In this document: positions 1,519 to 13,441 of the stretch, piece by piece
Layout: the number at the start of each line of letters is the position of its first letter
How positions within the stretch are numbered: position 1 is the first letter of the stretch
Source: Acidimicrobiales bacterium
GTDB taxonomy: Bacteria; Actinomycetota; Acidimicrobiia; Acidimicrobiales; Poriferisodalaceae
Direction: 5' to 3'
Length of the DNA: 13,441 nt
Assembly: GCA_020439485.1 (NCBI GenBank)
Contig: JAGQSP010000195.1
Coordinates: 1-13,441 of the forward strand
Made by a program: the position numbers and the translations under genes
The notes under the pieces: generated by a model
The model's database searches: none
Seen by the model: the letters and a program-made list of their open reading frames with translations, nothing else
Told to the model about the DNA's origin: nothing

Positions 1519-2736
1519 TCACTCGACGGTGCGAATGGCAGGTCGCAGGCTGATGGTGGCAGCCGCGCACGACACGACGAAACCGGTGATCACCAGCGTG
1601 TTGGGCGGCCCGATGGTGGCGTTGAGCCAGCTGGCCAGCGCTGCGGCCAACGGCAGGCTTCCGGTCATGGTCAACATCAGCAGGCCCATCACCCGGCCCA
1701 TGTACTCGCCGGGTGTGTGCTCTTGGATCAAGGTCCGCTGCATGGTGACGACGATTCCGCCGCCCAGGCCCCAGGCCAACATCGCAACCGCAGACAGTGC
1801 ATAGACCTTGCTGAACCCCAGCACCACCATCATCGAGCCCGAAATGCTGGAGAACGCCAGCGCCATCCAAAGACCCCGGCGCGAGATGGTCTTGCGGCTG
1901 GCGATGAATGCCGTGGTGGCAAACATTCCCACGCCCAGGAACAGGTTCAGCAAGCTGGCGGGCCCAGCGCCCAGACCCATCTCGTCGCGAACGATGTCGG
2001 GCGTCGAGATCTGCACCAGCGCACCTGCGGTCGACATCACCAAACCGCAGGCGACGAGGCTGCGCACGGGTTCGAGCCTGCGTACCAGCCGCAGCCCATC
2101 GCGTATTGCACCGGCACGAGCAGGCGGTTGCCCGGACGCTTGGGCGATGATGACCGGTCGCATCAAGTAGGCGGCCAGCACCAGGAACACCGCCATCACG
2201 GCGAACGAGGTCTGGATGTCGAATACCTCGATCACCACACCACCGACGACGGCTCCGGCCATCAGCGAAACGTTCATCGCCATCGACCCCAGGGCCACAC
2301 CGCTCATCAACAACTCGGGTTCGACCAACCTGGGAATGGCGGCCTGCAACGCCGGGCTCATCATGGCGATGGCGGCCCCGGCCAAGATCGCCACCGCAGC
2401 CGCCCACCGGGGGGTGGCGATGTCGGTGGCCACGAGGACGGCCGTGGTGATCATCACGCACGCAGCGGCCAGTGCCATGGCGATGATGAGATTGCGCTGG
2501 CTGACCCGGTCGCTGAGCGAGCCGGCCTGCAGGCTCAGCATCATGGCGGGCAACCCAAACCCCAGGATGACCAGACCGGGCGCGCCGTCCCAGTCTGTGA
2601 GCTCCTCTGTCAGCCACACGAACTGGAATCGCAGGCTGCCGCCCACGGTCATGATCAAGAAGTTGGCGGCCAGAAACCGCCGAAACAGGGGCCGCGACAG
2701 CAGTTCGCGGGCCGGGTGGCGGGCCGTTGCGGTCAG
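1519..2736 (-). CDS. MFS transporter (EntS/MFS_3-like)
   Basis: A 405-residue integral membrane protein with about twelve hydrophobic helices, the usual size for a single-polypeptide major facilitator. The loop GSLSDRVSQRN (residues 72-82) matches the MFS motif A between helices 2 and 3. Overall character suggests the MFS_3 drug/siderophore exporter branch (inference; substrate unknown). The start is unusual: the frame upstream has no ATG, GTG or TTG until 2970, deep inside the preceding gene. A CTG at 2736-2734 overlaps the TGA stop of that gene as CTGA, with GAGG 7 nt upstream (2744-2747). Starting there gives a short basic N-terminus (TATARHPARELLSRP) before helix 1, normal for the family. 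The internal ATG at residue 29 would cut helix 1. It is translationally coupled to the ThDP enzyme, so the pair may process and export, or import and process, one compound. Confidence 0.85.
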   Translation of the reverse strand: MTATARHPARELLSRPLFRRFLAANFLIMTVGGSLRFQFVWLTEELTDWDGAPGLVILGFGLPAMMLSLQAGSLSDRVSQRNLIIAMALAAACVMITTAVLVATDIATPRWAAAVAILAGAAIAMMSPALQAAIPRLVEPELLMSGVALGSMAMNVSLMAGAVVGGVVIEVFDIQTSFAVMAVFLVLAAYLMRPVIIAQASGQPPARAGAIRDGLRLVRRLEPVRSLVACGLVMSTAGALVQISTPDIVRDEMGLGAGPASLLNLFLGVGMFATTAFIASRKTISRRGLWMALAFSSISGSMMVVLGFSKVYALSAVAMLAWGLGGGIVVTMQRTLIQEHTPGEYMGRVMGLLMLTMTGSLPLAAALASWLNATIGPPNTLVITGFVVSCAAATISLRPAIRTVE

Positions 2737-4265
2737 AGGAGGGCCTCGATGAGGTGGGGCCCCGGCTCTGCGTTTGCCCGGTCGAATGCAGCGACGAATT
2801 CGTCGGCTGTGGTGGCCCTGGTCGCGTCTACGCCCATTCCCTTGGCGACGGTGGCGAAGTCGATGACCGGATTGCCCAGCGACGTCAGCGAGGCCGCCTT
2901 GGGCCCCGGCTTCTCGATGCCGGCGCGCAACAACTCGACCTCGAGAATGGCGTAGCGCTGGTTGTTGCACAGAACCACGGTCACGTCGAGGTTCTCACGC
3001 GCCATCGTCCACAGTGACTGGATGGTGTACATCGACGAGCCATCGGCCTGGAAGGCGATGACACGACGGTCGGGTTGGGCACAGGCAGCTCCGACCGCCA
3101 GCGGAAGCCCGCCGCCGATTGCCCCGCCCGTGGGCGAGAAGCTGGGGTGGGTAGGGGCGCTGAGCGAATAGCGGCGAAGCCCCGCAGCCGACGTGATGCC
3201 TTCCTGGACCATCATGGCGCCGTCGGGCATGCCGGCGATGACCGCCGCGCCCAGGGTGTCGACGTTCAGCGGGCCGGTGGGCTTGTCGGGGCGGGCAGGT
3301 GTGCTGACCGGCTGGCGGGCTGCGCCGAGGGTCTGGGCGAGAGCGCCCAGCGCGGCCGCCACGTCGGCTTCGGGACCGCCCATCGAGAAGCGTCGCGAGC
3401 CTGCGGGCAGCGTTTCGCTGGGGGTATCGGGATAGCCGAAGAAGGTCACCGGTTCGGTGGTGCCAAGCATCACGGCGGTCTCGACATCGGCCAGCGCCTG
3501 CATGGCCTGTTCGGGGAAGTAAGGCACCTCGATGATTCGAGGTACTCCCTGGCCGACATCGGCGTTGGGCACCCGGTAGCTGAACAGCTGACAGCCGGTG
3601 GCGTGCGCGATGGCGGTGGCGTCGAGCGCCATGTCGGCAGTGAGCCAGGCGCCGCCCACGATCAAGGCGGTGCCGGGGCGTCGCAGAAGCTCGGCCGCCT
3701 CGGCTATGACGTCGTCGGCCACCGGGCTGAGGGCGCCGATCGTTGGCATGGTGATGTCGTCGGGAGCCTGTTCCCAGGTGACGTCGGCGGGGATGACCAG
3801 CGACGCTGGGCCCCGCTGGCCGGTGGTGGCGGCCTCGATCGCGGCGGCCGTGTCGGCGGAGATGTCGTTGGTCGACCGCACATAGCGGTGCCAACCGGCC
3901 CAGGTGGCGACCTTCTCGGTGTCTGAGGTCAAGGGAGCGTCGTAGGGGAGGTGCGACGTCGTCTGGTCACCGATCAGGTTGACCACGGGTGAGAAGCCGC
4001 GCCGGGCGTTGTGGTTGTTGGCCAGGGCGTTGGCGAACCCGGGGCCCAGGTGGAACAGGCCGAGCGCCGGCTTGCCGCTGGCACGCCAGTAGCCGTCGGC
4101 CGCTCCGGAAGCTACACCCTCGAACATCGTCAGCACAGCACGCATGCCAGGTACGCGGTCGAGGGAGGCCACCATCGCCATCTCGGTCGTGCCCGGGTTG
4201 GCAAAGCAGGTGTCGATTCCCGCCGCAAGGGCGGTCTGGAACATGATGTCGGATCCGGTCGGCAT
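2733..4265 (-). CDS. Thiamine-diphosphate-dependent enzyme, IlvX / acetolactate-synthase-like
   Basis: A 510-residue protein with the three-domain layout of ThDP enzymes. The N-terminal pyrimidine-binding domain contains FANPGTTEM (21-29) and the activating glutamate E49 in MFEGVASGAADGY. The central domain (about 185-315) holds LIVGGAWLTADMA. The C-terminal domain has the Mg/ThDP motif ADGSSMYT (407-414) followed by CNNQRYAI (433-440), with D408 and N435 as likely metal ligands. ADGS rather than GDGS, and the 510-residue length, fit the uncharacterised IlvX-type acetolactate-synthase-like family rather than true AHAS. The real substrate is unknown; benzoylformate-decarboxylase-like chemistry is the main alternative. 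I chose the ATG at 4265 because family homology begins there; GGAG lies too close to be a good ribosome site. An in-frame extension to 4397 reads non-homologous residues and crosses an inverted repeat. The gene overlaps the MFS gene by four bases. Confidence 0.88.
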   Translation of the reverse strand: MPTGSDIMFQTALAAGIDTCFANPGTTEMAMVASLDRVPGMRAVLTMFEGVASGAADGYWRASGKPALGLFHLGPGFANALANNHNARRGFSPVVNLIGDQTTSHLPYDAPLTSDTEKVATWAGWHRYVRSTNDISADTAAAIEAATTGQRGPASLVIPADVTWEQAPDDITMPTIGALSPVADDVIAEAAELLRRPGTALIVGGAWLTADMALDATAIAHATGCQLFSYRVPNADVGQGVPRIIEVPYFPEQAMQALADVETAVMLGTTEPVTFFGYPDTPSETLPAGSRRFSMGGPEADVAAALGALAQTLGAARQPVSTPARPDKPTGPLNVDTLGAAVIAGMPDGAMMVQEGITSAAGLRRYSLSAPTHPSFSPTGGAIGGGLPLAVGAACAQPDRRVIAFQADGSSMYTIQSLWTMARENLDVTVVLCNNQRYAILEVELLRAGIEKPGPKAASLTSLGNPVIDFATVAKGMGVDATRATTADEFVAAFDRANAEPGPHLIEALL

Positions 4266-4340
4266 CTCCGCAGTTTGGTCTGCCAAGAGCCTGGATGGCG
4301 AATCAGCTGCTCCGCTATCGGCCCCATGCCCGCGTCCAGG

Positions 4341-4415
4341 TCTTAGCGACAACTGAACCTCGGTGGCTCGTCCCCCGAGCTCCGACGGCGGCAGCACACG
4401 AGATTGTCGCTAAGA
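4341..4415. repeat. Perfect 12-bp inverted repeat, arms 4341-4352 and 4404-4415
   Basis: The left arm TCTTAGCGACAA and right arm TTGTCGCTAAGA are exact reverse complements separated by 51 bp. Arm centres are 63 bp apart, close to six helical turns, which would suit two operator half-sites on one DNA face. Alternatively, in the leader RNA of the ThDP gene they could pair as a 12-bp stem closing a large loop. The arms begin 76 bp upstream of the ThDP gene start. Confidence 0.6.
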
Positions 4416-4490: not shown

Positions 4491-5042
4491 CTAGGTGAGA
4501 CGCAGGGCCGTCCAAGCGCCAACGAGGATGGTGGCGTCTGGTTCGACGGGCACCTCGATGCCTGGGTCGAGCATCACCGGCTGGGTGCCGGGTCGTCGCA
4601 GGTAGGTGCCGTTGGTCGACTCGAGGTCGGAGATGACCCACGACCCGTCGTCGCGGCGGCGCAGCATCGCCTGACGAGCAGACACCGCAGGGTCGCCGGT
4701 GAGCGCAGCCACGTCCACCTCGGGGTATACGGCACGACTGTCGCTGCGTCGGCCTACCAACGACGCCGGCGCCAACGTGACCTGGGTGGGTTCGGGGACC
4801 GGGTCGGGCAATTCGAGCTGCCCGTCGGGGTCGATGAACGCGTGGTGCTGCGGGTCGACCGAGACTACAACCGTGGACGGTGGCGAAACGGCACCCGGCT
4901 CGGCGGCCGCGACCTCGACCTCGACCTCTGGCGCTTCGGCCGCTGTGGACGTGATGAAGTCGAAACCGCACTTCTCGCAAAACAGATGGTCGGGCTCGGG
5001 CACCGAGCCACAACCCGGACACTGCGAAGGCGTGACGCTCAC
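4491..5042 (-). CDS. Zinc-ribbon FHA-domain protein
   Basis: A 183-residue cytoplasmic protein, last gene of the kinase operon. A zinc ribbon lies at residues 8-25 (C8, C11, C22, C25). An acidic, Pro-rich linker spans roughly 33-90. The C-terminal FHA domain (about 95-183) is a phosphothreonine-binding fold. G97-R98, S121 and N144-G145-T146 match the GR, SxxH and NGT positions, but the usual SRRH is SARQ, so the structural His is replaced by Gln. The GTG start at 5042-5040 overlaps the upstream VWA stop as GTGA, with a weak G-run upstream. The context with a PknG-type kinase suggests a role like GarA, the mycobacterial FHA target of PknG. However, it has a zinc ribbon GarA lacks, and no ETTS phospho-acceptor motif. 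It could instead read phosphothreonines on the kinase or its other substrates. Confidence 0.9.
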   Translation of the reverse strand: MSVTPSQCPGCGSVPEPDHLFCEKCGFDFITSTAAEAPEVEVEVAAAEPGAVSPPSTVVVSVDPQHHAFIDPDGQLELPDPVPEPTQVTLAPASLVGRRSDSRAVYPEVDVAALTGDPAVSARQAMLRRRDDGSWVISDLESTNGTYLRRPGTQPVMLDPGIEVPVEPDATILVGAWTALRLT

Positions 5043-6358
5043 GACGAAGCCCCCGGTTCGCGCCTGCGATTGACCCTGACCGTGCGTGTCGAGCGCACAT
5101 CGAGCGCCATCGCATCGGCCTGCTCGACCGACCTGCGCAAACGTACGGTGCCGGTCTCGGGATCTTCGACCTCGACGACCTTGGCCAGCAGCTTGACCGT
5201 GTCGTCGTTACCTGCTTCGTGGGCCAGCTGTACCGCTCGACCCAGCCGAACCGTCGCCGTGTCGTGATCGCCCGCCTGACGGGCAGCGAGGCCCTCGGCG
5301 ATGGCGTCGGCCAGCTCTGCCTGACCCGTGTAGTGGGCCACCTCGCCGTTGATGCGGGTCGACAGCACCTCGTCGTCGGTCCAGACCGCCTTCACCAGGG
5401 CAGCCGGTTGCTCTTGCCCGTCGACGACCAGCATGACCCTGGCCGCCAGGCGCTCCTGGCCGACGTTGCCGACCGGGATGTCGATACGCAGGTGATAGTC
5501 GCGCTCCTCGCCAGGACCCCACGCCCCGAGCGGATAGTCGGTGATGAGCGGGCTGACCACGTCCCCCTTGTCGGAAAGGTCCTCGAGGTTGGGCGACACC
5601 TGTTTGACGAACCCCAGCTGTGACCCCTTCGGCGACCACAGCCGCAGAGCGACCGACCCGATCTGTTTGGACATCGAAGCCATTGTGAGCGCCCTGAACT
5701 CGGCCTCGAGCTCGTCGGGTGATGGGACGATGTCGACGGTGCCGAGCAGGGCGTTGGCGACCTTGCGCAGCTCATCGACCTCCCAGTCGGTGCCGAGGCC
5801 CCGGGCATCACACTGGAACTTGCCCACCGACGCGGCGATGGCCTGGTCGAGCTGCCACGGCTTCTCGTGCTCGTTCTTTCCATCGGTCAGCAGCGTGCAG
5901 TGCGCCACACCGCCGGGCGACAAGCTGAACAGGGCCGCCGCTGCCAGCAACCACGACCCGATGGCTGTGCCGCCATCGGCACGAACCCTGGCTACCGCGT
6001 CGCAAGCCGCTTCTCTGGTGCGGTCGTCGGCCACGGCCAGGCCCTGGTAGGGGTACAACATGCGGGCCTCGTGGTTGCCCATGACCACGGCGAACTCTGT
6101 GCCGTCGGCCAACACGTTGATGGCCGCCATGGTGGCCTGGCGGGCCGCTTCGATCTTGGCGCCGTTGTCACCCATCATCGAACCGGACGTGTCGATGACG
6201 ATGACCTCGACCCGGCCACCCACCGGTTGGGCGGTGGCGTTGGCGCCGCCTGCAGCGCCCAGCTCGCCCGAGGACACGGTGATGATGGCATCGACCGACG
6301 TGGCGCCCGCGGGCAAGTACTCGTTCTGGAATACCGATGCGGCGAAGTTGGTGGTCAT
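5039..6358 (-). CDS. VWA (von Willebrand factor A) domain protein
   Basis: A 439-residue protein with no signal peptide or membrane helix, so probably cytoplasmic. A VWA domain begins near residue 48 with a complete MIDAS: DTSGS (D56, S58, S60), T131 in DGGTAIGSWL, and D159 in LLTDGKNE. This site should bind a metal ion and grip a partner's acidic residue. Residues about 235-330 look like a beta-sandwich, and about 345-439 are helical with charged repeats, possibly a TPR-like or coiled segment. The ATG at 6358 overlaps the PP2C stop as ATGA and has a strong Shine-Dalgarno GGAGGAG (6366-6372). It is the fourth gene of the kinase operon. VWA proteins commonly act as adaptors or scaffolds; a role in assembling kinase, phosphatase and FHA protein is inferred from context alone. 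Confidence 0.9.
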   Translation of the reverse strand: MTTNFAASVFQNEYLPAGATSVDAIITVSSGELGAAGGANATAQPVGGRVEVIVIDTSGSMMGDNGAKIEAARQATMAAINVLADGTEFAVVMGNHEARMLYPYQGLAVADDRTREAACDAVARVRADGGTAIGSWLLAAAALFSLSPGGVAHCTLLTDGKNEHEKPWQLDQAIAASVGKFQCDARGLGTDWEVDELRKVANALLGTVDIVPSPDELEAEFRALTMASMSKQIGSVALRLWSPKGSQLGFVKQVSPNLEDLSDKGDVVSPLITDYPLGAWGPGEERDYHLRIDIPVGNVGQERLAARVMLVVDGQEQPAALVKAVWTDDEVLSTRINGEVAHYTGQAELADAIAEGLAARQAGDHDTATVRLGRAVQLAHEAGNDDTVKLLAKVVEVEDPETGTVRLRRSVEQADAMALDVRSTRTVRVNRRREPGASS

Positions 6359-7323
6359 GTGGCGTCTCCTCCGGGATTGGGCCCGAACTCGGCGATCGCA
6401 ACGGTGATGTTGTCATGTCCGCCGCTGCTGTTTGCGTAATCGACCAGGGCCTGTGCCAGCTGAACCGGTTGGGGGTTGTCGGTTCGCAACCGGGCGACGG
6501 TGGCCGCCAGCGCCTGGGGTTCGTCCAGATAGCGCCACAACCCGTCGGTGCACACGATGAGCAAGCCCGGCGCCTGAGCGCGAAAGTCGACGCTGGATGG
6601 GGTGACATCGGCGGCGTCGAGGCCCAGCCAGCGGGTGATAGAACCCGACTGTTCGTCACCCGGTGGACCGTCGTACACGTGGTCAGCGGTCAGGCGCAGC
6701 GCCTCGGCACCCACCCAGTAGGCGCGGCTGTCGCCCAGCCAGCCGACCACTCCCGAAACACCGTCTGAGTCGGCACGAGCGACGGCGACCACCAGGGTGG
6801 CGGAGGGCGGAAGGTCTCCCGCCCGGGGCGGATCGGCCTGGGTGATGGCTATCACCTGGTGCTGGGCCGCCGCCGCTGCCTTGGTGAGGTCGACATCGGC
6901 GACGACCGCCACTGCACGCAAGTCGTCGGACAACGCGTCGCTGGCCGCGGTGGCCGCAGCCCTGGCCGCAGCGGCCGGCGAGTCTGTACTGCCCACCCCA
7001 TCGCACACGGCTATCACCGCAGTGCCGTTTGCATCGGTGACCGAGAACGCGTCCTCGTTGCCCGCGCGCCTGGACCCCTTGTGGGTGACCGCGGCAACCC
7101 AGCCGAGATCGACCACCACGTGATCGTGCTCGCCGGGCTGTCTGGCGCCGCACGAACCGCAATAACCGTCGACGATGCCTTCGCCCGGCGCACCACAATC
7201 GGCACATGGCGGTGACGGCGCAGGCCCGTCTAGATCGGCCCCGCACGCCTCGCACCACGACGCAGCCCCAACAGCGGGCTCGCCACATGCAGGGCAGGCG
7301 TCGGCACCGGTCGAAGTGGTCAA
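6355..7323 (-). CDS. PP2C-family Ser/Thr protein phosphatase with two N-terminal zinc ribbons
   Basis: A 322-residue soluble protein. Two CxxC...CxxC ribbons lie at residues 10-27 (C10, C13, C24, C27) and 40-58 (C40, C43, C55, C58). The PP2C domain spans about 72-313 with the expected motifs: RRAGNEDAF (D91), CDGVGS (D108), GWLGDSRAYW (195-203), CTDGLW (D260) and GGHDNITVAI (D304). These aspartates should hold two Mn/Mg ions that activate water for phosphate hydrolysis. It is probably the counter-enzyme of the adjacent kinase. The start is TTG at 7323-7321, overlapping the kinase stop as TTGA, with AAGGA 7 nt upstream. Its second ribbon ends VDGYCGSCG, closely resembling the kinase's DDGYCDTCG ribbons. 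No membrane segment is present, unlike mycobacterial PstP. Confidence 0.93.
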   Translation of the reverse strand: MTTSTGADACPACGEPAVGAASWCEACGADLDGPAPSPPCADCGAPGEGIVDGYCGSCGARQPGEHDHVVVDLGWVAAVTHKGSRRAGNEDAFSVTDANGTAVIAVCDGVGSTDSPAAAARAAATAASDALSDDLRAVAVVADVDLTKAAAAAQHQVIAITQADPPRAGDLPPSATLVVAVARADSDGVSGVVGWLGDSRAYWVGAEALRLTADHVYDGPPGDEQSGSITRWLGLDAADVTPSSVDFRAQAPGLLIVCTDGLWRYLDEPQALAATVARLRTDNPQPVQLAQALVDYANSSGGHDNITVAIAEFGPNPGGDAT

Positions 7324-9779
7324 AAGAGGGTCCTTGGTCGGATGCTGTTGGCCCTGTCGACCAACTCGATCCGCAGATCTGGATCTGAGGCCAGCCTTGC
7401 CCGTTCGCGGTAGGCGGCCTCGAGCCCTCGCTTCAGTTCGCGGCGGTCGAGGGGACGGCCGAACAGCGTGACGTTCTGGCTGCCGCGGGAAAGCGCGTCT
7501 GGATCGGTGTCGGCCAGTGCCAGGGCACGCTCGAGGATGTCTGTGGTGAGAGCTGCACGCTCTGCGGCATCGATCTGCAGACGTTCGACCGTGGCGGCGG
7601 CTCGGGCCAGCTCGGCAGGAGTCGGCGCTGTGTCGTGATCGACGGCGGCCAGCAACCTGGCGACCTCGGATTGGGCCGCGCCGTAGGCGGCCGAGCTGCG
7701 TGGAACCCGATCGAGTGCGGCGGCCCCTCCCGCCCGGTCGCCACCGGCTGCCAGGCAGCGGGCCAGGCCGAACGCGGCCGACACGTCGGTGGGGTCGACC
7801 GACACGACCCGTTCGTACAGCTGGGCGGCACGCACCACTTCGCCGGCGGCTTCAGCGGCCATGGCCACCGCCAGCTGGGGTGCCAACTCGCCGGGCACCG
7901 CTGTCCAGACGTTCGAGAACCGCTCGGCTGCCACCACCGCACGCTGCTGGGACAATTCGAACAGGCCCCTGTACCAATCGACGCGCCACTCCCAGGGGTC
8001 AGCCTCGACGATCGAATCCAGCACCGGACCGGGGTCGCGTCCGGCCTCTACCAGGGCCCGAGCTCGGCGCAGCTCGACCTCTCTGGACGAGCCCAGCTGA
8101 CCGCTGGCGATGCCCTGGTCTATGAGGTCGAGCGCCTGCGAGCCCTCGACCTCGTCCATCTCGATGAGAGCCGCCGCCGACGGATCGGCCGGGTCGACCA
8201 GCGTGCGGGGCAGGGCCCTCCACTCGACATCGTGGACCACAGCGTTCGACCCCTCGTGCAACAGGGCTGGGGCGCGGTCGGGCCCGAACAGGGTGCTCGG
8301 TGTCGGCTTCGGTGACGACGTCTCGACCGCAACGATTTCCCTGAGCACGCCGATGAGCTGCTGGCTCATCTCGCCTGCGGTTTGGAATCGGTCGTCTGGA
8401 TGCGGCGCTGTTGCCTTCAGCAAGAAGCGATGAAGAGACTCCCACCGGGCGAACAACGGCTCGTCTGCGGGGCCGGGCAGCGCATGCATGTAGGGCCCGC
8501 TGTGGAACACGAAGTTGAGGATCAACACGGCGAGCGTGCGGCCCACTGTGTACAGGTCTGACTGCACAGAAGGTCCGGCCGAAGCCACCTCTGGAGCTTG
8601 GAAGCCCTGGGTGCCGAATATGGCCGCATCGTGGTCGTCGGCCCGCATGACCGCACCCACATCGATGAGCTTGACACCATCGTCCACCGCCATGATGTTG
8701 GCGGGCTTGAGGTCGTTGTAAACCAGGCCGCGGTCGTGCAGGTATCCGAACGCGGGCAGGATGCCGAGGATGTAGGCGATGGCTTCGGGCACTTCCAGCG
8801 GCAGGGGAACCCCGCCGTTCGACCGCCTGCGGGCTTTCAGCTTCGAGTTCAACGACTCGCCGCCCACATACTCCATGACGATGTAGCCCGACCCGGCGTG
8901 GGTCACGAAGTTGTAGATGTTGACGATGGCGCCGTGTTCGATCTGGGCGAGGAACTGGCGCTCGGCCACTGCGGCCAGCGCCGCGTCGGGATCGGACGAA
9001 TCGATCAGGCCCTTCAGCACCACCCATCGGTCTGACACGGCCTTGTCTCGACCCAGATATATCCAGCCCATGCCGCCGTGGGCGATGGGCCCCAGCACCT
9101 CGTACTGGCCGGCCACCAACTCGCCGGCGACGAGAGCCGGCGCGTTGGACGCAAAGTCGAAAGGGGCCCGACAATTGGAACAGAAACCCTTGATACGGCC
9201 CTCGCGGCCATCGCTGGACCGGCCTACCTGGCTGTCGCACGAGCGGCAGAACCGCTCGTCTTCGGGGGTTACCTCGACGACCTCGGCGATCTCATCGGGG
9301 GTCATCACCGCAGCCGCCGGATCGCCACCGGGTGTGGGGGCCACCGAGACCAGACCCACGCCGAGGCTGGTGCGAGCGCTGGTGGTGCGCGAAGACCCGG
9401 TGCGGCGCCGGCTGCCCGCAACGGTCGCCGAAACCGAAGGCGCCGATGCCAGGGCGATGGACGAGGTGGTCGAGGACGAGCCCGGCGCACCCGTGCCGCC
9501 GGCCGCGCCGCCCGATGGCACCGGCTGAGGGGCGAGCGTGCCGCAGGTGTCGCAGTAGCCGTCGTCGAGAACCGTGCCGGTGCATCCGGCGACGGTGCAC
9601 CCGCCACCACCACTAACTGCGATGGGCGAAGTCGGCGACGCGGGCACGACAGACGGCGGCGCTTGCGGCGGGCTGGGGGCGCTGGAGCCCACCACAGGTC
9701 CGGGGCTGCCGCAGGTGTCGCAGTAGCCGTCGTCGAGAACTGTGCCGGTGCATCCGGCCATGGTGCATGCGGTGCTCAC
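7320..9779 (-). CDS. pknG: PknG-type Ser/Thr protein kinase (zinc ribbons, rubredoxin, kinase, TPR)
   Basis: An 819-residue soluble kinase, longer than M. tuberculosis PknG (750). Two near-identical zinc ribbons lie at residues 5-23 and 61-79 (ending LDDGYCDTCG). A Ser/Thr-rich linker (100-140) contains TTS at 132-134. The PknG rubredoxin follows (C178, C181, C200, C203). The kinase domain (about 225-485) has AHGGMGWIYLG, catalytic K256 in VVLKGL, VYNDLKPANIM with D356 replacing the usual HRD context, and LIDVGAV instead of DFG, both PknG traits. Also PknG-like are GTQGFQAPE, YTVGRTLA and PGELAPQLAVA in the C-terminal TPR region, and the ending NSIRPRTLF. PknG controls glutamate/2-oxoglutarate metabolism through FHA proteins in mycobacteria and corynebacteria. 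The GTG start at 9779-9777 overlaps the upstream stop as GTGA, with GGAGG at 9786-9790. An in-frame extension to 10799 is a shadow of the upstream gene. Confidence 0.95.
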   Translation of the reverse strand: MSTACTMAGCTGTVLDDGYCDTCGSPGPVVGSSAPSPPQAPPSVVPASPTSPIAVSGGGGCTVAGCTGTVLDDGYCDTCGTLAPQPVPSGGAAGGTGAPGSSSTTSSIALASAPSVSATVAGSRRRTGSSRTTSARTSLGVGLVSVAPTPGGDPAAAVMTPDEIAEVVEVTPEDERFCRSCDSQVGRSSDGREGRIKGFCSNCRAPFDFASNAPALVAGELVAGQYEVLGPIAHGGMGWIYLGRDKAVSDRWVVLKGLIDSSDPDAALAAVAERQFLAQIEHGAIVNIYNFVTHAGSGYIVMEYVGGESLNSKLKARRRSNGGVPLPLEVPEAIAYILGILPAFGYLHDRGLVYNDLKPANIMAVDDGVKLIDVGAVMRADDHDAAIFGTQGFQAPEVASAGPSVQSDLYTVGRTLAVLILNFVFHSGPYMHALPGPADEPLFARWESLHRFLLKATAPHPDDRFQTAGEMSQQLIGVLREIVAVETSSPKPTPSTLFGPDRAPALLHEGSNAVVHDVEWRALPRTLVDPADPSAAALIEMDEVEGSQALDLIDQGIASGQLGSSREVELRRARALVEAGRDPGPVLDSIVEADPWEWRVDWYRGLFELSQQRAVVAAERFSNVWTAVPGELAPQLAVAMAAEAAGEVVRAAQLYERVVSVDPTDVSAAFGLARCLAAGGDRAGGAAALDRVPRSSAAYGAAQSEVARLLAAVDHDTAPTPAELARAAATVERLQIDAAERAALTTDILERALALADTDPDALSRGSQNVTLFGRPLDRRELKRGLEAAYRERARLASDPDLRIELVDRANSIRPRTLF
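9540..9758 (-). repeat. 51-bp direct repeat encoding duplicated zinc ribbons (9540-9590 and 9708-9758)
   Basis: The two 51-bp copies differ at one base, C/T at 9573 versus 9741. They are offset by 168 bp (56 codons) and encode the core of the two N-terminal zinc ribbons of the kinase. The intervening 117 bp, coding for a Pro/Ser/Ala-rich linker, is not repeated. Near identity at the DNA level suggests a recent duplication or gene conversion. Confidence 0.9.
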
Positions 9780-10975
9780 GTCGAGCCTCCATCCGAAGCC
9801 TTGCGCAGGCCGTCGCCGTAGCGTTCCACGAGGCTTGATGCTCGCGCCACATCTACGGGCGCGGTGAACAGTTCGTTGTGTGCCGAGTCGGCCAAGTCGG
9901 CTAGGTCTGGGTGGGTGACCGCGGCGATTCCCATCGCTCTGGCCTTGGCCCGGTATGCGGCAAGGCGGCCGCGGAGCTCGTCGCGGCGATCGAGGCCGGC
10001 GCGGTTGGCGGACAGCGCCCGTTCGAGCTGGTCGGCGACCGCCTGAGCGGTGCGATTCCAGCGGCGGAACTCGGCCAATGCCACCGGGCCCATCGTCGCG
10101 ATCGAGGTGGCCTGTTCGGCCAAGCCACCCACTCCGTCGATGATCTGCGGGCCTGGTGGCTTTATCAACTCGCCGGGGGCGGCGATCTTGGCCTTGGCCT
10201 CGGAATAGGCTGCCGCGGCTTGGGCTCGCAGCAACCTCAGCGACGCCAGACGCTTGTCGATGCCCGCCAGCTCTGCGCTGAGACTGGCGGCCTCGGCCAT
10301 GAGCGCGTCGACCCGATCGGCGGCGTCTTCGACGGCGGCGTCGAGGTCGCGCCCGGCGTTTGGGCCCACCGCCAAAGGGTCGGTCAGCACGATGCGGTCG
10401 AGTTCTTCGAGTGCCAGGCGAGCCGCCGCCATTTCGGCTGGTTCGCCCACGCCGGCCTCTTGAAGGTGCTGCCCCATCGACGCGAGCGAACGGCGTGCCG
10501 CATCGAGCCTGGGCAGCACCCCAGACCAGATCGAGTCGATCTCGGCCACGGCGTCTCGAAGCGGGCCATAAACCGCACCCATGCGCTCGATCAACTCTTC
10601 GACGGTTATCGACCTCGTGGTTGTCTTGGGGTCGAGCATCCCTCGTTCGCCCAGGGGCACGTCGTCGGTCGACAGCACTACCGACCGGCCGGCCAGCAGC
10701 TCGCGAAGTTGTTGGGCCCGCTCGCCCCTGGGCCGACCCTGCTGACGCAACTCTCCGGCGCGATCGACGATGTCGCCCAGCTGCGTCAACCACCGCCACA
10801 ACAACGGGGCGGCCTCGAGCGCAGCTCCTACGCGGCCCACGGTGGCGGGGCCGACATCACCGTTCGACAAGATCTCGTACGCCCGATGGTTGTCTAGGTC
10901 GACCAGGTTCGCGGCGATGCGGCTGTGGGCGACGCGGTAGCGCTCGAGTAGTGCGTCCAGCTCGTCACCGTTCAT
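9776..10975 (-). CDS. Helical/coiled-coil protein of unknown function, first gene of the kinase operon
   Basis: A 399-residue protein that I do not recognise. It has no signal peptide, no membrane helix and no cysteine motif, and is predicted cytoplasmic. Most of it looks alpha-helical: residues about 125-270 and 300-360 are rich in Ala, Leu, Glu and Arg with heptad-like spacing, consistent with coiled coil. A Pro-rich break (KPPGPQIIDG) lies near 272-281. Residues 118-131 (TTTRSITVEELIER) hold a small Thr cluster. The start is ATG at 10975-10973. There is no Shine-Dalgarno, but a TAACAT -10-like hexamer sits 10 nt upstream, so the message may be almost leaderless. Its stop overlaps the kinase start, and it lies divergent to the GlnX-like sensor. 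By position it could be an adaptor between sensor and kinase; this is inference only. Confidence 0.85.
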   Translation of the reverse strand: MNGDELDALLERYRVAHSRIAANLVDLDNHRAYEILSNGDVGPATVGRVGAALEAAPLLWRWLTQLGDIVDRAGELRQQGRPRGERAQQLRELLAGRSVVLSTDDVPLGERGMLDPKTTTRSITVEELIERMGAVYGPLRDAVAEIDSIWSGVLPRLDAARRSLASMGQHLQEAGVGEPAEMAAARLALEELDRIVLTDPLAVGPNAGRDLDAAVEDAADRVDALMAEAASLSAELAGIDKRLASLRLLRAQAAAAYSEAKAKIAAPGELIKPPGPQIIDGVGGLAEQATSIATMGPVALAEFRRWNRTAQAVADQLERALSANRAGLDRRDELRGRLAAYRAKARAMGIAAVTHPDLADLADSAHNELFTAPVDVARASSLVERYGDGLRKASDGGST

Positions 10976-11017
10976 GGCGCGGCCGATGTTAACCGTGATG
11001 AGTAGAGTTCGGCCTTG
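10976..11017. promoter_or_regulatory. Compact divergent promoter region between kinase operon and sensor operon
   Basis: Only 42 bp (39 bp if the sensor begins at TTG 11015) separate two divergent operons. On the plus strand TAGAGT (11003-11008) fits TANNNT and would start transcription around 11015-11018, at the sensor start codon. On the minus strand TAACAT (10991-10986) lies 10 nt before the ATG at 10975. Neither gene has a good Shine-Dalgarno, which fits leaderless or near-leaderless mRNAs, common in actinobacteria. Matching -35 boxes are not evident and would fall in the opposing promoter or gene. Confidence 0.5.
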
Positions 11018-12250
11018 ATGTCGTCGAAGCCGACCCTCTCGACGCCACGGCTGTTCCGGCTGTGGGCGGTGCTATGTGTGCTGGCCGCTGCAGTCGCGGG
11101 CGTGGTGGGGTTCATCGCCACCTCGAGCCTGGTGTCGTCGACCGAACGTATCCGCGACAACTCGGGCCCAGTACTGGTGGCCACCCAGGACGTCATCGCC
11201 AGCGTCGCCGAAGCCGATGCCGCGTCCACCGCCGTCTTCTTGTCCGGCCAGGACCAGGACCGCTCGCAACGCCTGCTGTACGAAGAGGCATTGGCCAGAT
11301 CCATCTCGCAGGTCGAGGAGGTGGCCAGGCTGATTGGCGACGACGACACGGCCCACCTGTCGTTGAAAGACGTCGCTGCGAATCTGGTTCGATACGCAGG
11401 CCAGGTCGAGGCGGCACGAGGCGCCAACCTGAACGCCGAGGCCGGGGCCGACGATTTGTTGCGTGCCGCTCTGGCCACCGTTCGAGACGACATCTTCCCC
11501 CAGATCGATGTGGTTGCTGCCCGTGCCGACACCCAGCTGGCCGACGACGGCCGCGGACTGGTGCCCACGGTGCTGGCCGTGGTGGCGGCCGCAATGGCCG
11601 GCGTGGTCATGCTGGCGGCGAACGGCGTGGTCCGCAGGCGCACCAACCGGCTGTTGAACCCCGGCCTGGTCGTAGCCGGTCTGATGCTGTTGGTGTTTGC
11701 CCTGTGGGTTGCGGTGGCCTCGGCCAGCCGCAGCGCCGAGCTGGACAACGCCGAAACCGGAGGGTTCGACACCATCGCGGCGACTGCGCGTATCCAACAG
11801 GCCGGGTTCAGCTACAAGACCGCCGAAGCGGTGTCGATAGTCGACGGTCGCTCCGACCCAGGCCTCGACGCCCAGGCCGCCGAGGTACAGGCACTGTTGG
11901 CAGAGGCGGGGGCCTTGGCCGACTCCGACCGGGAAGACGCCGCAGTTGCCGAACTGGTGGTGCGCTGGGATCGCTACCTCGAGGTCAGCGATCGCGTCGA
12001 GCAGCTGTTGGCATCGGGCGACGCATCAGGGGCCCGTGTTGTCGCATCGGGCGAGGGCAACTCGGCGTTCAATGGGTTCAACACAGCGGTCGAGAGCGTG
12101 CTGCTGGACAACCGGACCCAATTCGCCGAAGGGGTGCAGGCCGCAACTGCAGCGCTGGGGTATCTCAGGGTCGCATCGGTGGTGCTGGCCGCAGCAGCGG
12201 CCTTGGCCGCGTGGTTCGGCTTCCAGGCCCGGATAGGTGAGTACTCGTGA
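11018..12250 (+). CDS. GlnX-like membrane sensor with two extracytoplasmic helical domains
   Basis: A 410-residue membrane protein with four hydrophobic segments: about 14-35, 181-203, 215-236 and 384-402. Between segments 1-2 and 3-4 lie helical domains of about 145 residues each, resembling four-helix-bundle chemoreceptor ligand domains (for example YAGQVEAARGANLNAE near 126-141). This topology, with no cytoplasmic output domain, is that of GlnX (Rv0412c), which in M. tuberculosis links the binding protein GlnH to PknG. Here the next gene is a solute-binding lipoprotein and the PknG operon is divergent, so the same role is likely. I chose the ATG at 11018; a TTG at 11015 directly before it is equally possible. 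Its stop overlaps the next start as GTGA. No HAMP, kinase or methyl-accepting domain was seen, so it is not an ordinary chemoreceptor or histidine kinase. Confidence 0.85.
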   Translation: MSSKPTLSTPRLFRLWAVLCVLAAAVAGVVGFIATSSLVSSTERIRDNSGPVLVATQDVIASVAEADAASTAVFLSGQDQDRSQRLLYEEALARSISQVEEVARLIGDDDTAHLSLKDVAANLVRYAGQVEAARGANLNAEAGADDLLRAALATVRDDIFPQIDVVAARADTQLADDGRGLVPTVLAVVAAAMAGVVMLAANGVVRRRTNRLLNPGLVVAGLMLLVFALWVAVASASRSAELDNAETGGFDTIAATARIQQAGFSYKTAEAVSIVDGRSDPGLDAQAAEVQALLAEAGALADSDREDAAVAELVVRWDRYLEVSDRVEQLLASGDASGARVVASGEGNSAFNGFNTAVESVLLDNRTQFAEGVQAATAALGYLRVASVVLAAAAALAAWFGFQARIGEYS

Positions 12251-13401
12251 AGCAGAATCTCTCAACGTCCGGCCGCCCGGTGTCGCGACGAACCTTCATC
12301 GCCACCGCGTCTGCGCTGCTGCTGGCCGCATGTGCCAACGATCGACGCACCTTCGACCTGGGCGGGCGTTCGGAGCTGTCGATCTGGAACTGGGCTGACT
12401 ACGTCGACCCCACCGAAGACGGCGCGGTCGGATCGGTCGACCGGTTCGCTGCCGACACAGGCATACGCGTCTCCTACGACGATTCGTACGAAGACAACGC
12501 GGCCGCGTTCGACGACGTCATCGCCCCGGCTCTGGGCGGGGGAGGGCGGGTCGGCTACGACATCATCGTTCCGACCTACTGGTTGGCGGCGCGGATGCTG
12601 GACCGCAACTGGCTCGAGCCCATACCTCTGGAGATCGTGCCCAATCACGTCAACATCGATCCGTCGTTCCTGACGCCGTCGTGGGACAGGGGGGCTCGGT
12701 TCAACATGCCGTGGCAGGCGGGCATCACGGGCATCGCCTACAACCCAGAGCTGACCGGCGGTCGGGTGCCTACGGTTGCCGACCTGTTCACCACACGTTT
12801 CGACGCCGGCATCGGCATGGTTCGAGAAATGCGCGAGACCGTGGGCCTGGCGATGCTGGTCGACGGCAACGACCCCACCCGACCCACGCTCGACGCTGCG
12901 ATGCAAGCCCTGGACCGAATCGAGGCCGCGGCGACGTCTGGGCAGGTGAACCGATTCACCAGCTTCCAGTTCGCCGACGGGTTGGCTTCGGGCGAACTGG
13001 CCGCCGCGATGGCGTGGTCTGGCGACATCGTGCAGCTTCAGCGCGAACGCCCCGACATCGAGTTCGTGATACCCGACGAGGGTGCGATTCAGTGGTTCGA
13101 CACCATGGTCATTCCCAAAGGCGCAGCCAACGTGGCGGCCGCGGGCGAGTGGATGAACTTCGTGTACGACCCGGCCAACGCAGCGCAGCTGACCACCTGG
13201 GTGCAGTACATCTCGCCCGTCATCGGGGTGCGTGACGAACTGGTGGCACTGGGCGGAGAATCCGCCCAACTGGCCGACAACCCGATTCTGTTTCCCGACT
13301 CGACCACCAGGCAGCGGTTGTACACGTGGGGCTCGATGCCCGAGGTCGACGAGTTGGCGGTCGAGGAACGATTTGCGTCGATCATCGGGGAGGGCGAGTG
13401 A
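12247..13401 (+). CDS. PotD/PotF-like solute-binding lipoprotein (Tat signal)
   Basis: A 384-residue periplasmic-type binding protein. Residues 13-29 carry a twin-arginine motif (SRRTFI) and a lipobox LLAAC with C29 as lipidation site, so it is exported folded and anchored to the outer face of the membrane. The mature protein resembles spermidine/putrescine-binding proteins: LSIWNWADYVDP (44-55), YDIIVPTYWLAARML (104-118), MPWQAGITGIAYN (154-166), AMAWSGDIVQLQ (254-265) and WFDTMVIPKGAANV (283-296). W283 and D285 align with E. coli PotD W255 and D257, which contact polyamine, supporting but not proving a polyamine ligand. The GTG start at 12247 overlaps the sensor stop and has AGGTGA upstream (12235-12240). 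Mycobacterial GlnH in this position belongs to a different, amino-acid-binding family. Confidence 0.9.
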   Translation: MKQNLSTSGRPVSRRTFIATASALLLAACANDRRTFDLGGRSELSIWNWADYVDPTEDGAVGSVDRFAADTGIRVSYDDSYEDNAAAFDDVIAPALGGGGRVGYDIIVPTYWLAARMLDRNWLEPIPLEIVPNHVNIDPSFLTPSWDRGARFNMPWQAGITGIAYNPELTGGRVPTVADLFTTRFDAGIGMVREMRETVGLAMLVDGNDPTRPTLDAAMQALDRIEAAATSGQVNRFTSFQFADGLASGELAAAMAWSGDIVQLQRERPDIEFVIPDEGAIQWFDTMVIPKGAANVAAAGEWMNFVYDPANAAQLTTWVQYISPVIGVRDELVALGGESAQLADNPILFPDSTTRQRLYTWGSMPEVDELAVEERFASIIGEGE

Positions 13402-13441
13402 CACCGACGGGGCCCGAGTACCGCATGCACCACTACAGCGA
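13398..13441 (+). CDS. Start of an unidentified coupled gene (3' end beyond window)
   Basis: A GTG at 13398-13400 overlaps the binding-protein stop as GTGA and is preceded by GGAGG at 13389-13393, a good Shine-Dalgarno. It opens a frame beginning MTPTGPEYRMHHYS that runs off the window. Fourteen residues are too few to identify it. In a transport operon the next gene would often be a PotA-type ATPase; in a sensing-only locus it could be anything else. An alternative ATG lies at 13425. Confidence 0.6.
   Translation, partial: MTPTGPEYRMHHYS

Follow-up and report, generated by a model that had tools for sequence, protein, structure and literature searches.

A PotD-like lipoprotein in place of GlnH beside a GlnX sensor and PknG kinase module in Acidimicrobiales: a predicted polyamine or diamine input

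The window analysed here, a 13,441-nucleotide stretch of an Acidimicrobiales genome (contig JAGQSP010000195.1), encodes a PknG-type Ser/Thr kinase and a GlnX-type membrane sensor whose gene overlaps that of a lipoprotein solute-binding protein (SBP) of the PotD/PotF family. Three papers describe a GlnH-GlnX-PknG-GarA/OdhI pathway in M. tuberculosis and C. glutamicum (PMC6069109, PMC9769921, PMC8546545), and in one of them GlnH homologues linked to PknG are expected to be receptors for amino acids (PMC6069109). We propose, with a probability of about two in three, that the window encodes a variant of this pathway in which a PotD/PotF-type lipoprotein replaces GlnH and supplies a polyamine- or diamine-type input. 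Very probably, the SBP is a PotD-type receptor dedicated to a GlnX subtype of its own, which in turn feeds the PknG pathway; given such a receptor, its residues point to a polyamine or diamine as the likely ligand. A first-pass annotation had suggested a ligand different from that of GlnH, perhaps a polyamine, and we infer the same from a PotD-like SBP that has its own GlnX clade and retains polyamine-contact residues.

Results

The lipoprotein encoded with glnX retains the contact residues of polyamine receptors

Three genes on the plus strand make up the sensor operon:

11015..12250, plus strand: GlnX-type sensor of the PotD-partner clade, with four transmembrane segments and two periplasmic helical parts (NF058618 E 1.1e-60, below cut-off; AF2 model; tree)
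12247..13401, plus strand: Tat lipoprotein SBP of the PotD/PotF family, a predicted polyamine/diamine receptor (families, structure, contact residues)
13398..13441, plus strand: start of the gene for a pyridoxal phosphate (PLP)-dependent group II decarboxylase (rest on the same contig; family from a same-genus homologue)

The glnX stop and the SBP start overlap in a GTGA at 12247-12250, and the SBP and decarboxylase genes overlap in a second GTGA at 13398-13401. A sensor gene overlapping that of a Tat lipoprotein with PotD-family motifs had been noticed at first pass, and the observation stands: the SBP belongs to SBP_bac_8 (Pfam), and an alignment of 40 homologues shows no variation in its Tat RR motif or in lipobox Cys29. 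It lacks PF00497 (SBP_bac_3), the family by which we recognized GlnH and which matched the GlnH-type neighbour SBPs in 4/4 scanned. Its best NCBIfam matches are PotD and PotF, at scores that miss the equivalog cut-offs (100.8 of 582 bits and 99.8 of 636 bits, respectively), and PotD/PotF-type proteins make up most of its best PDB sequence matches. A structure model built with the 40 homologues (mean pLDDT 90.3) found PotD, PotF, and SpuD/SpuE entries as its top structural matches, with GABA and opine receptors lower down.

We then compared ligand contacts. In PotD, E36, D168, E171, and D257 hold the amine groups of spermidine while W34, Y37, W229, and W255 stack on it (PMC11414716); in PotF, D39 and D247 are the proximal acids, and E185 and D278 are among the distal ones (PMC8666671). 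The E. coli PotD residues W34, E36, Y37, D168, E171, W229, W255, and D257 correspond to W49, D51, Y52, E194, E197, W257, W283, and D285 in the window SBP. All four acidic and all four aromatic contacts are thus retained, two of them as Asp/Glu exchanges. The equivalents of PotF D247 and D278 are retained as well, and the window SBP also carries D260 among the contact places. By sequence, then, the protein has the acidic and aromatic residues expected of a polyamine receptor.

PotD-type GlnX proteins form a sister clade with partner-specific periplasmic residues

Window GlnX matched NCBIfam NF058618 over its full length (positions 2-412 of 413, E 1.1e-60), with 206 bits against a cut-off of 250, and reached 27.9 bits with 4HB_MCP_1 (cut-off 27). 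It has four hydrophobic segments, and its AF2 model (pLDDT 91) is helical throughout. These results bear out the GlnX-like four-TM sensor of the first-pass annotation; in its model the protein is a four-transmembrane sensor with two predicted periplasmic helical bundles. None of the PotD-type GlnX proteins reached the NF058618 cut-off, the closest being that of G337 at 249.3 bits. The sequences that passed were GlnH-type, except that of G111, whose SBP was not in view; one GlnH-type GlnX, from G015, also fell short at 243.5 bits. Judged by sequence, PotD-type GlnX is a sister clade of GlnX and not a member under the NF058618 rule. A Foldseek search with the GlnX model gave no match at E<=0.001; human TTYH proteins came top, and four-helix-bundle (4HB) receptors were among the matches, with high probability and weak E.

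The GlnX tree, from which L190 and L191 were excluded, has two sides, one for PotD partners and one for GlnH partners (support 100). Eleven rows were labelled GlnH-type: eight show an adjacent GlnH, and the SBP is out of view in L029, L031, and L032. L029 and L031 fall on the GlnH side. The only row to cross its label is L032, which falls in the PotD-type clade and whose SBP lies beyond the contig end and is predicted to be PotD-type (genome G223); we removed it from the GlnH group for the residue comparison, leaving ten rows, two of them without a seen SBP.

To compare the two groups, we defined a partner-specific position as one with a residue found in at least 80% of PotD-type GlnX proteins (29 sequences) and at most 25% of the GlnH-labelled rows (10 sequences), and assigned compartments by hand from AF2 helices and hydropathy. 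All 27 partner-specific positions are periplasmic. The 25 positions common to both groups comprise 16 periplasmic, 7 cytosolic (one of them the start Met), and 2 in membrane segments; the common cytosolic positions include T10, R15, R212, N215, R406, and Y410. For periplasm versus cytosol and partner-specific versus common, Fisher's test gave p 0.0025, or 0.005 without the Met; the rows are related, so that p serves as a guide only. This pattern of sequence conservation is consistent with a shared output that receives input of two kinds. We dropped the idea that the SBP docks at the distal tips of GlnX: by AF2 helix limits, some partner-specific residues are close to the tips, and others occupy the half of the second bundle that is nearer the membrane.

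The GlnX-SBP pairing recurs, without Pot-type ABC genes at the examined loci

A scan of GTDB species genomes that used the SBP alignment as query gave 196 relatives, of which we examined the best 79 loci, assigning neighbours by profile and sequence searches. GlnX lies upstream of the SBP in 27 loci, in 26 of them directly, and 48 loci have genes for a Pot-type ATPase and/or permease. The other four are unassigned: the sequence of L063 and L090 breaks off at the SBP, and L108 and L131 match neither. No locus among the 79 has both GlnX and Pot-type ABC genes, and our searches of the sequence surrounding the 27 GlnX-linked loci and the window detected neither a permease nor an ATPase of the Pot type. 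Adjacent Pot ATPase and permease genes were not found at the window locus. The first-pass annotation had named potABC immediately downstream as a finding that would count against it; on its own contig, which runs to 17588, the SBP gene is followed by the decarboxylase gene, and potABC was not found downstream.

A second sample comprised 397 genomes of the window's order, overlapping in organisms with the first, with an SBP threshold of E<=1e-60 (7 of the 64 stretches scripted for it were refetches). It yielded 58 SBP places in 57 genomes: 22 with GlnX detected, the window, 34 of the ABC type, and L201, which has neither gene class in view. L201 has the contig coordinates of L086, is therefore that very place, and was counted as GlnX-type, giving 24 in total. 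Searches that started from GlnX found fewer genomes: 5/198 with a single sequence, an insensitive search, and 16/296 at E<=0.001 with a family model, of which ten had a convincing score or length; at most five candidates were scored per genome, so this number may be an undercount. GlnX loci of this class are of two kinds, beside GlnH (SBP_bac_3) or beside a PotD-like SBP (SBP_bac_8), which answers the question raised at first pass of what binding-protein family sits next to GlnX. The identical order in many bins rules out a chance neighbour or chimera, and recurrence across the GTDB and order samples rules out a single odd genome.

We next counted contact residues in the 27 GlnX-linked loci plus the window, the 48 ABC-linked loci, and the four unassigned ones (L063, L090, L108, and L131). 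Among the 28 GlnX-linked SBPs, W49, Y52, E194, E197, W257, W283, and D285 are present in all 28, and an acid at position 51 and D260 in 26 each. The other contacts are mostly retained in the ABC-linked SBPs too, whereas the acid at position 51 (PotD E36/PotF D39) occurs in 26/28 GlnX-linked and 0/48 ABC-linked SBPs.

A quick 82-row tree that had PotD and PotF of E. coli as its outgroup places the GlnX-linked SBPs in one clade (SH-aLRT 97), adjoined by five ABC-linked SBPs. One linkage change explains this tree, the four unassigned rows left out; the program warned of long outgroup branches, and which linkage came first is not readable from it. Among the examined loci we saw no GlnX with an SBP of the opposite clade. 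A single GlnX is encoded in 20/21 PotD-type genomes searched; genome G349 (L188, L189, and L086) has three GlnX genes, two paired with GlnH and one PotD-type.

A conserved kinase module accompanies both sensor types

Divergent from the sensor operon, five genes lie on the minus strand:

4491..5042, minus strand: FHA protein with an N-terminal zinc-ribbon-like segment (PF00498 E 6.3e-9; zinc-ribbon matches below cut-off)
5039..6358, minus strand: VWA_3/VWA_3_C protein (PF13768, PF18571)
6355..7323, minus strand: PP2C-type phosphatase with an N-terminal zinc-ribbon-like segment (PF13672 E 1.6e-11)
7320..9779, minus strand: PknG-type Ser/Thr kinase with rubredoxin, kinase, and TPR parts (PF16919, PF00069, PF16918; 2pzi E 4.6e-130)
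9776..10975, minus strand: conserved protein labelled CC (Pfam: no family above cut-off)

About 39 bases separate the CC start codon from that of glnX, and a simple scan found no promoter in this gap. A PknG has a kinase domain and a C-terminal PknG TPR domain, in most cases with a rubredoxin. The window kinase has all three above the Pfam cut-offs and aligns with the M. tuberculosis PknG structure 2pzi over residues 138-818, which confirms the PknG-like kinase recognized at first pass. Its start codon needed correcting, to the GTG at 9779, where the gene overlaps the stop of the upstream CC gene in a GTGA.

Kinase-module genes lie on the fetched stretch in 23/27 GlnX-linked loci, 21 of them divergent and 2 (L067 and L070) colinear, in the order CC-PknG-PP2C-VWA-FHA-GlnX-SBP-decarboxylase. 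In the remaining four, PknG is 11 kb off (L064), the contig is only 3.9 kb long (L065), or the genome has PknG on another contig (L078 and L086). PknG was present in 19/19 searched genomes of the 27 loci. Those two colinear loci branch first in both the SBP and the GlnX trees. We rejected a kinase/sensor swap in them: in the unrooted PknG tree, three groups (the kinases of these two loci, those of the GlnH type, and the remaining PotD-type ones) branch from a single point, in keeping with the trees of GlnX and the SBP. The PknG tree matches the GlnX/SBP history except in G265, whose kinase (L144) sits among PotD-type kinases (a 12-row group, support 100), while the only GlnX detected is GlnH-type and on another contig (L026). 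No GlnX was found beside the G265 kinase genes. This mismatch implies that sensor and kinase were possibly re-paired at least once.

The CC protein gave no Pfam family above cut-off for the window copy or four homologues. It adjoins PknG in PotD-type and GlnH-type loci alike: a profile of 23 CC proteins from PotD-type loci matched homologues in the GlnH-type L024, L025, L027, L028, and L030 (E 1.8e-67 to 2.4e-14), which sit beside the kinase or GlnX, and another in L031. CC is therefore a module component in both sensor types and, by this gene context, may be an adaptor. L031 (G263) is a 4.7-kb contig with its CC-like gene directly after GlnX and no SBP between them. In the GlnH-side GlnX clade, an AAA+ ATPase-like gene, judged from sequence, lies directly upstream of GlnX at L030:11065-12504, L029:1161-3197, and L027:3521-5017.

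The FHA gene is conserved within the kinase module across loci, and its product may be a phospho-threonine reader. Each of 25 genomes, GlnH-type included, has an FHA protein matching the OdhI model (best per genome E 1.7e-38 to 1.1e-52). None exceeds the 200-bit cut-off, and 3/14 control genomes, from outside actinobacteria and without an OdhI over cut-off, also match, so such matches are not proof of OdhI. The OdhI/GarA-like copy of the window genome, at L260:104-571 on the minus strand, retains HPDSDIFLDDITVSRRH. Some relatives have an ETT motif ahead of the FHA domain, which is not plain in this copy; the motif presumably resembles the phospho-site region of GarA. N-terminal cysteine-rich zinc-ribbon-like segments are common to the FHA protein, the PP2C, the PknG N-terminus (window 4491-9779), and this OdhI/GarA-like protein. 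The suggestion of a self-contained sensory module survives in part. Kinase, phosphatase, FHA protein, and a possible adaptor (CC) do sit together; however, the sensor operon adds a decarboxylase, sensor and kinase are separable (L064, L078, and L086), and the OdhI/GarA-like FHA protein, of the kind known as a target in this pathway, is encoded elsewhere.

The rest of the window, the flank of the locus, encodes an FG-GAP repeat protein (3-1451), a major facilitator superfamily transporter (1519-2970), and an acetolactate-synthase-like thiamine pyrophosphate enzyme (2733-4397), all absent from the set of recurring neighbours. No viral relatives were found.

A PLP decarboxylase is coupled to the PotD-type sensor genes

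The first-pass annotation overlooked the decarboxylase gene that starts at 13398. Its remainder lies at L002:13559-14746, beyond a 117-base scaffold gap (13442-13558), on a contig (C741 of a 777-contig genome) that has a second gap at 15979-16092. Two homologues that we scanned carry PF00282. The gene follows the SBP in 26/27 GlnX-linked loci of the first sample, L087 ending at the SBP; in L086 it is directly behind GlnX. It is also present in L063, in L090, and on the window's own contig, that is, in 29/30 members of the clade, the thirtieth (L087) stopping at a contig edge. In the order survey, 21/22 places with GlnX detected have it, and L206 ends at the SBP. By contrast, we did not see it at the 48 + 34 ABC-linked places within the fetched stretches, which are short in the second sample. 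Its best named NCBIfam relative, far under cut-off, is the diaminobutyrate decarboxylase RhbB. That the window decarboxylase makes the sensed amine is a tentative idea, and we rate it as less likely than not.

Discussion

We suggest the following route for the signal. An external polyamine or diamine, the ligand predicted from the contact residues, would close the membrane-tethered SBP. The gene overlap, co-inheritance, and partner-specific periplasmic residues suggest that the SBP would then engage the helices that its own subtype of GlnX exposes in the periplasm. As in the published GlnX-PknG model, the signal would cross the membrane to PknG, perhaps with CC, and PknG and PP2C would determine how far FHA proteins are phosphorylated, both the local one and the OdhI/GarA-like one encoded elsewhere. 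The decarboxylase, whose gene overlaps the sensor genes, would probably make or handle a signal-linked amine.

Several observations weigh against this proposal. First, all 27 GlnX-linked loci come from metagenome bins, by their record titles, and in the genome of L086 4 kb separate the SBP from GlnX. Second, G265 shows that kinase lineage and sensor type are not strictly tied. Third, the contrast at residue 51 mostly reflects one evolutionary split, the rows sharing ancestry. Fourth, the fold class of the SBP includes receptors for other ligands (GABA and opines), and the decarboxylase substrate is not readable from sequence: its scores are 172.6 bits with DfoJ (5o5c) and 171.6 bits with 4obu, which we take to be a tryptophan decarboxylase, and aromatic decarboxylases come next in the match list. 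DfoJ-type enzymes, of desferrioxamine synthesis, make cadaverine.

These last points bear most on the strongest alternative, that the SBP is a dedicated GlnX-linked sensor for a non-polyamine ligand, e.g., an aromatic amine, a GABA-like compound, or a cationic amino acid related to the decarboxylase. The near-equal decarboxylase scores and the shared fold would suit it, as would the amino acids that PknG pathways sense elsewhere (PMC6069109). Nevertheless, polyamine receptors are the best structural and sequence matches of the SBP, which also keeps the acidic and aromatic contacts of PotD and the counterparts of PotF D247 and D278; we consider this alternative unlikely. It is very improbable that the SBP is an ordinary ABC-importer component merely adjoining glnX: sister SBPs do sit in ABC operons and public annotations name such proteins transporter SBPs, but Pot-type genes were not detected in the searched stretches, the SBP gene of the window overlaps glnX by 4 bases, and one SBP clade is tied to one GlnX clade. 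Equally improbable is control of the decarboxylase or another target by GlnX-SBP uncoupled from PknG, for while the decarboxylase accompanies the sensor genes wherever the locus has room and sensor and kinase genes are sometimes apart, most sensor operons adjoin the kinase module, every genome searched has PknG, and GlnX shares cytosolic residues with the GlnH type.

The proposed variant pathway can be set against known systems. Like the GlnH-GlnX-PknG-GarA/OdhI pathway, it has a PknG with rubredoxin and TPR, a GlnX-type sensor, and a lipoprotein SBP, and the genome encodes a candidate FHA protein of the OdhI/GarA kind. Unlike it, the SBP is PotD-like instead of an SBP_bac_3 protein, GlnX falls in a clade of its own under the NCBIfam cut-off, and a decarboxylase is coupled to the sensor; compared with M. 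tuberculosis and C. glutamicum as described there, PP2C, VWA, FHA, and CC also accompany the kinase, in GlnH-type loci of this class too. The SBP has the fold and contact residues of PotABCD/PotFGHI, while window-type loci lack the ATPase and permease genes. An SBP is likewise paired with a helical-bundle sensor domain in XylFII-LytS (PDB 5xsd), a weak-E Foldseek match of the GlnX model; XylFII-LytS is a two-component sensor with a sugar SBP. PotD homologues serve as sensors in NspS-MbaA polyamine sensing of Vibrio and Sinorhizobium (PMC9993111). With NspS-MbaA as portrayed there, the window shares a PotD-homologous SBP as predicted sensor and, at the level of genes, its overlap with the receptor gene; unlike that proteobacterial GGDEF/EAL c-di-GMP receptor, GlnX would feed a Ser/Thr kinase. 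In the open-access literature, several papers of which were judged by title, we found no report of a PotD-type partner of GlnX/PknG. The parts are known; their combination, its spread, and the coupled decarboxylase appear to be new.

PknG is a much-studied actinobacterial Ser/Thr kinase, and the PotD-partner clade lies outside the expectation that PknG-linked SBPs bind amino acids. A bolder and doubtful extension is that a Ser/Thr kinase circuit senses amines outside the cell and that a single operon encodes both its receptor and the decarboxylase producing the amine; cells might then make and sense their own diamine, and the input of PknG might have been rewired from acidic amino acids to polyamines by a change of SBP and GlnX, the kinase accepting either sensor. 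Related kinase modules with two receptor classes and two GlnX subtypes offer a natural comparison. The partner-specific positions point to where GlnX may read its SBP and make GlnX-SBP and GlnX-PknG communication testable. More broadly, our analysis suggests that SBPs annotated in these bacteria for spermidine/putrescine transport may be receptors.

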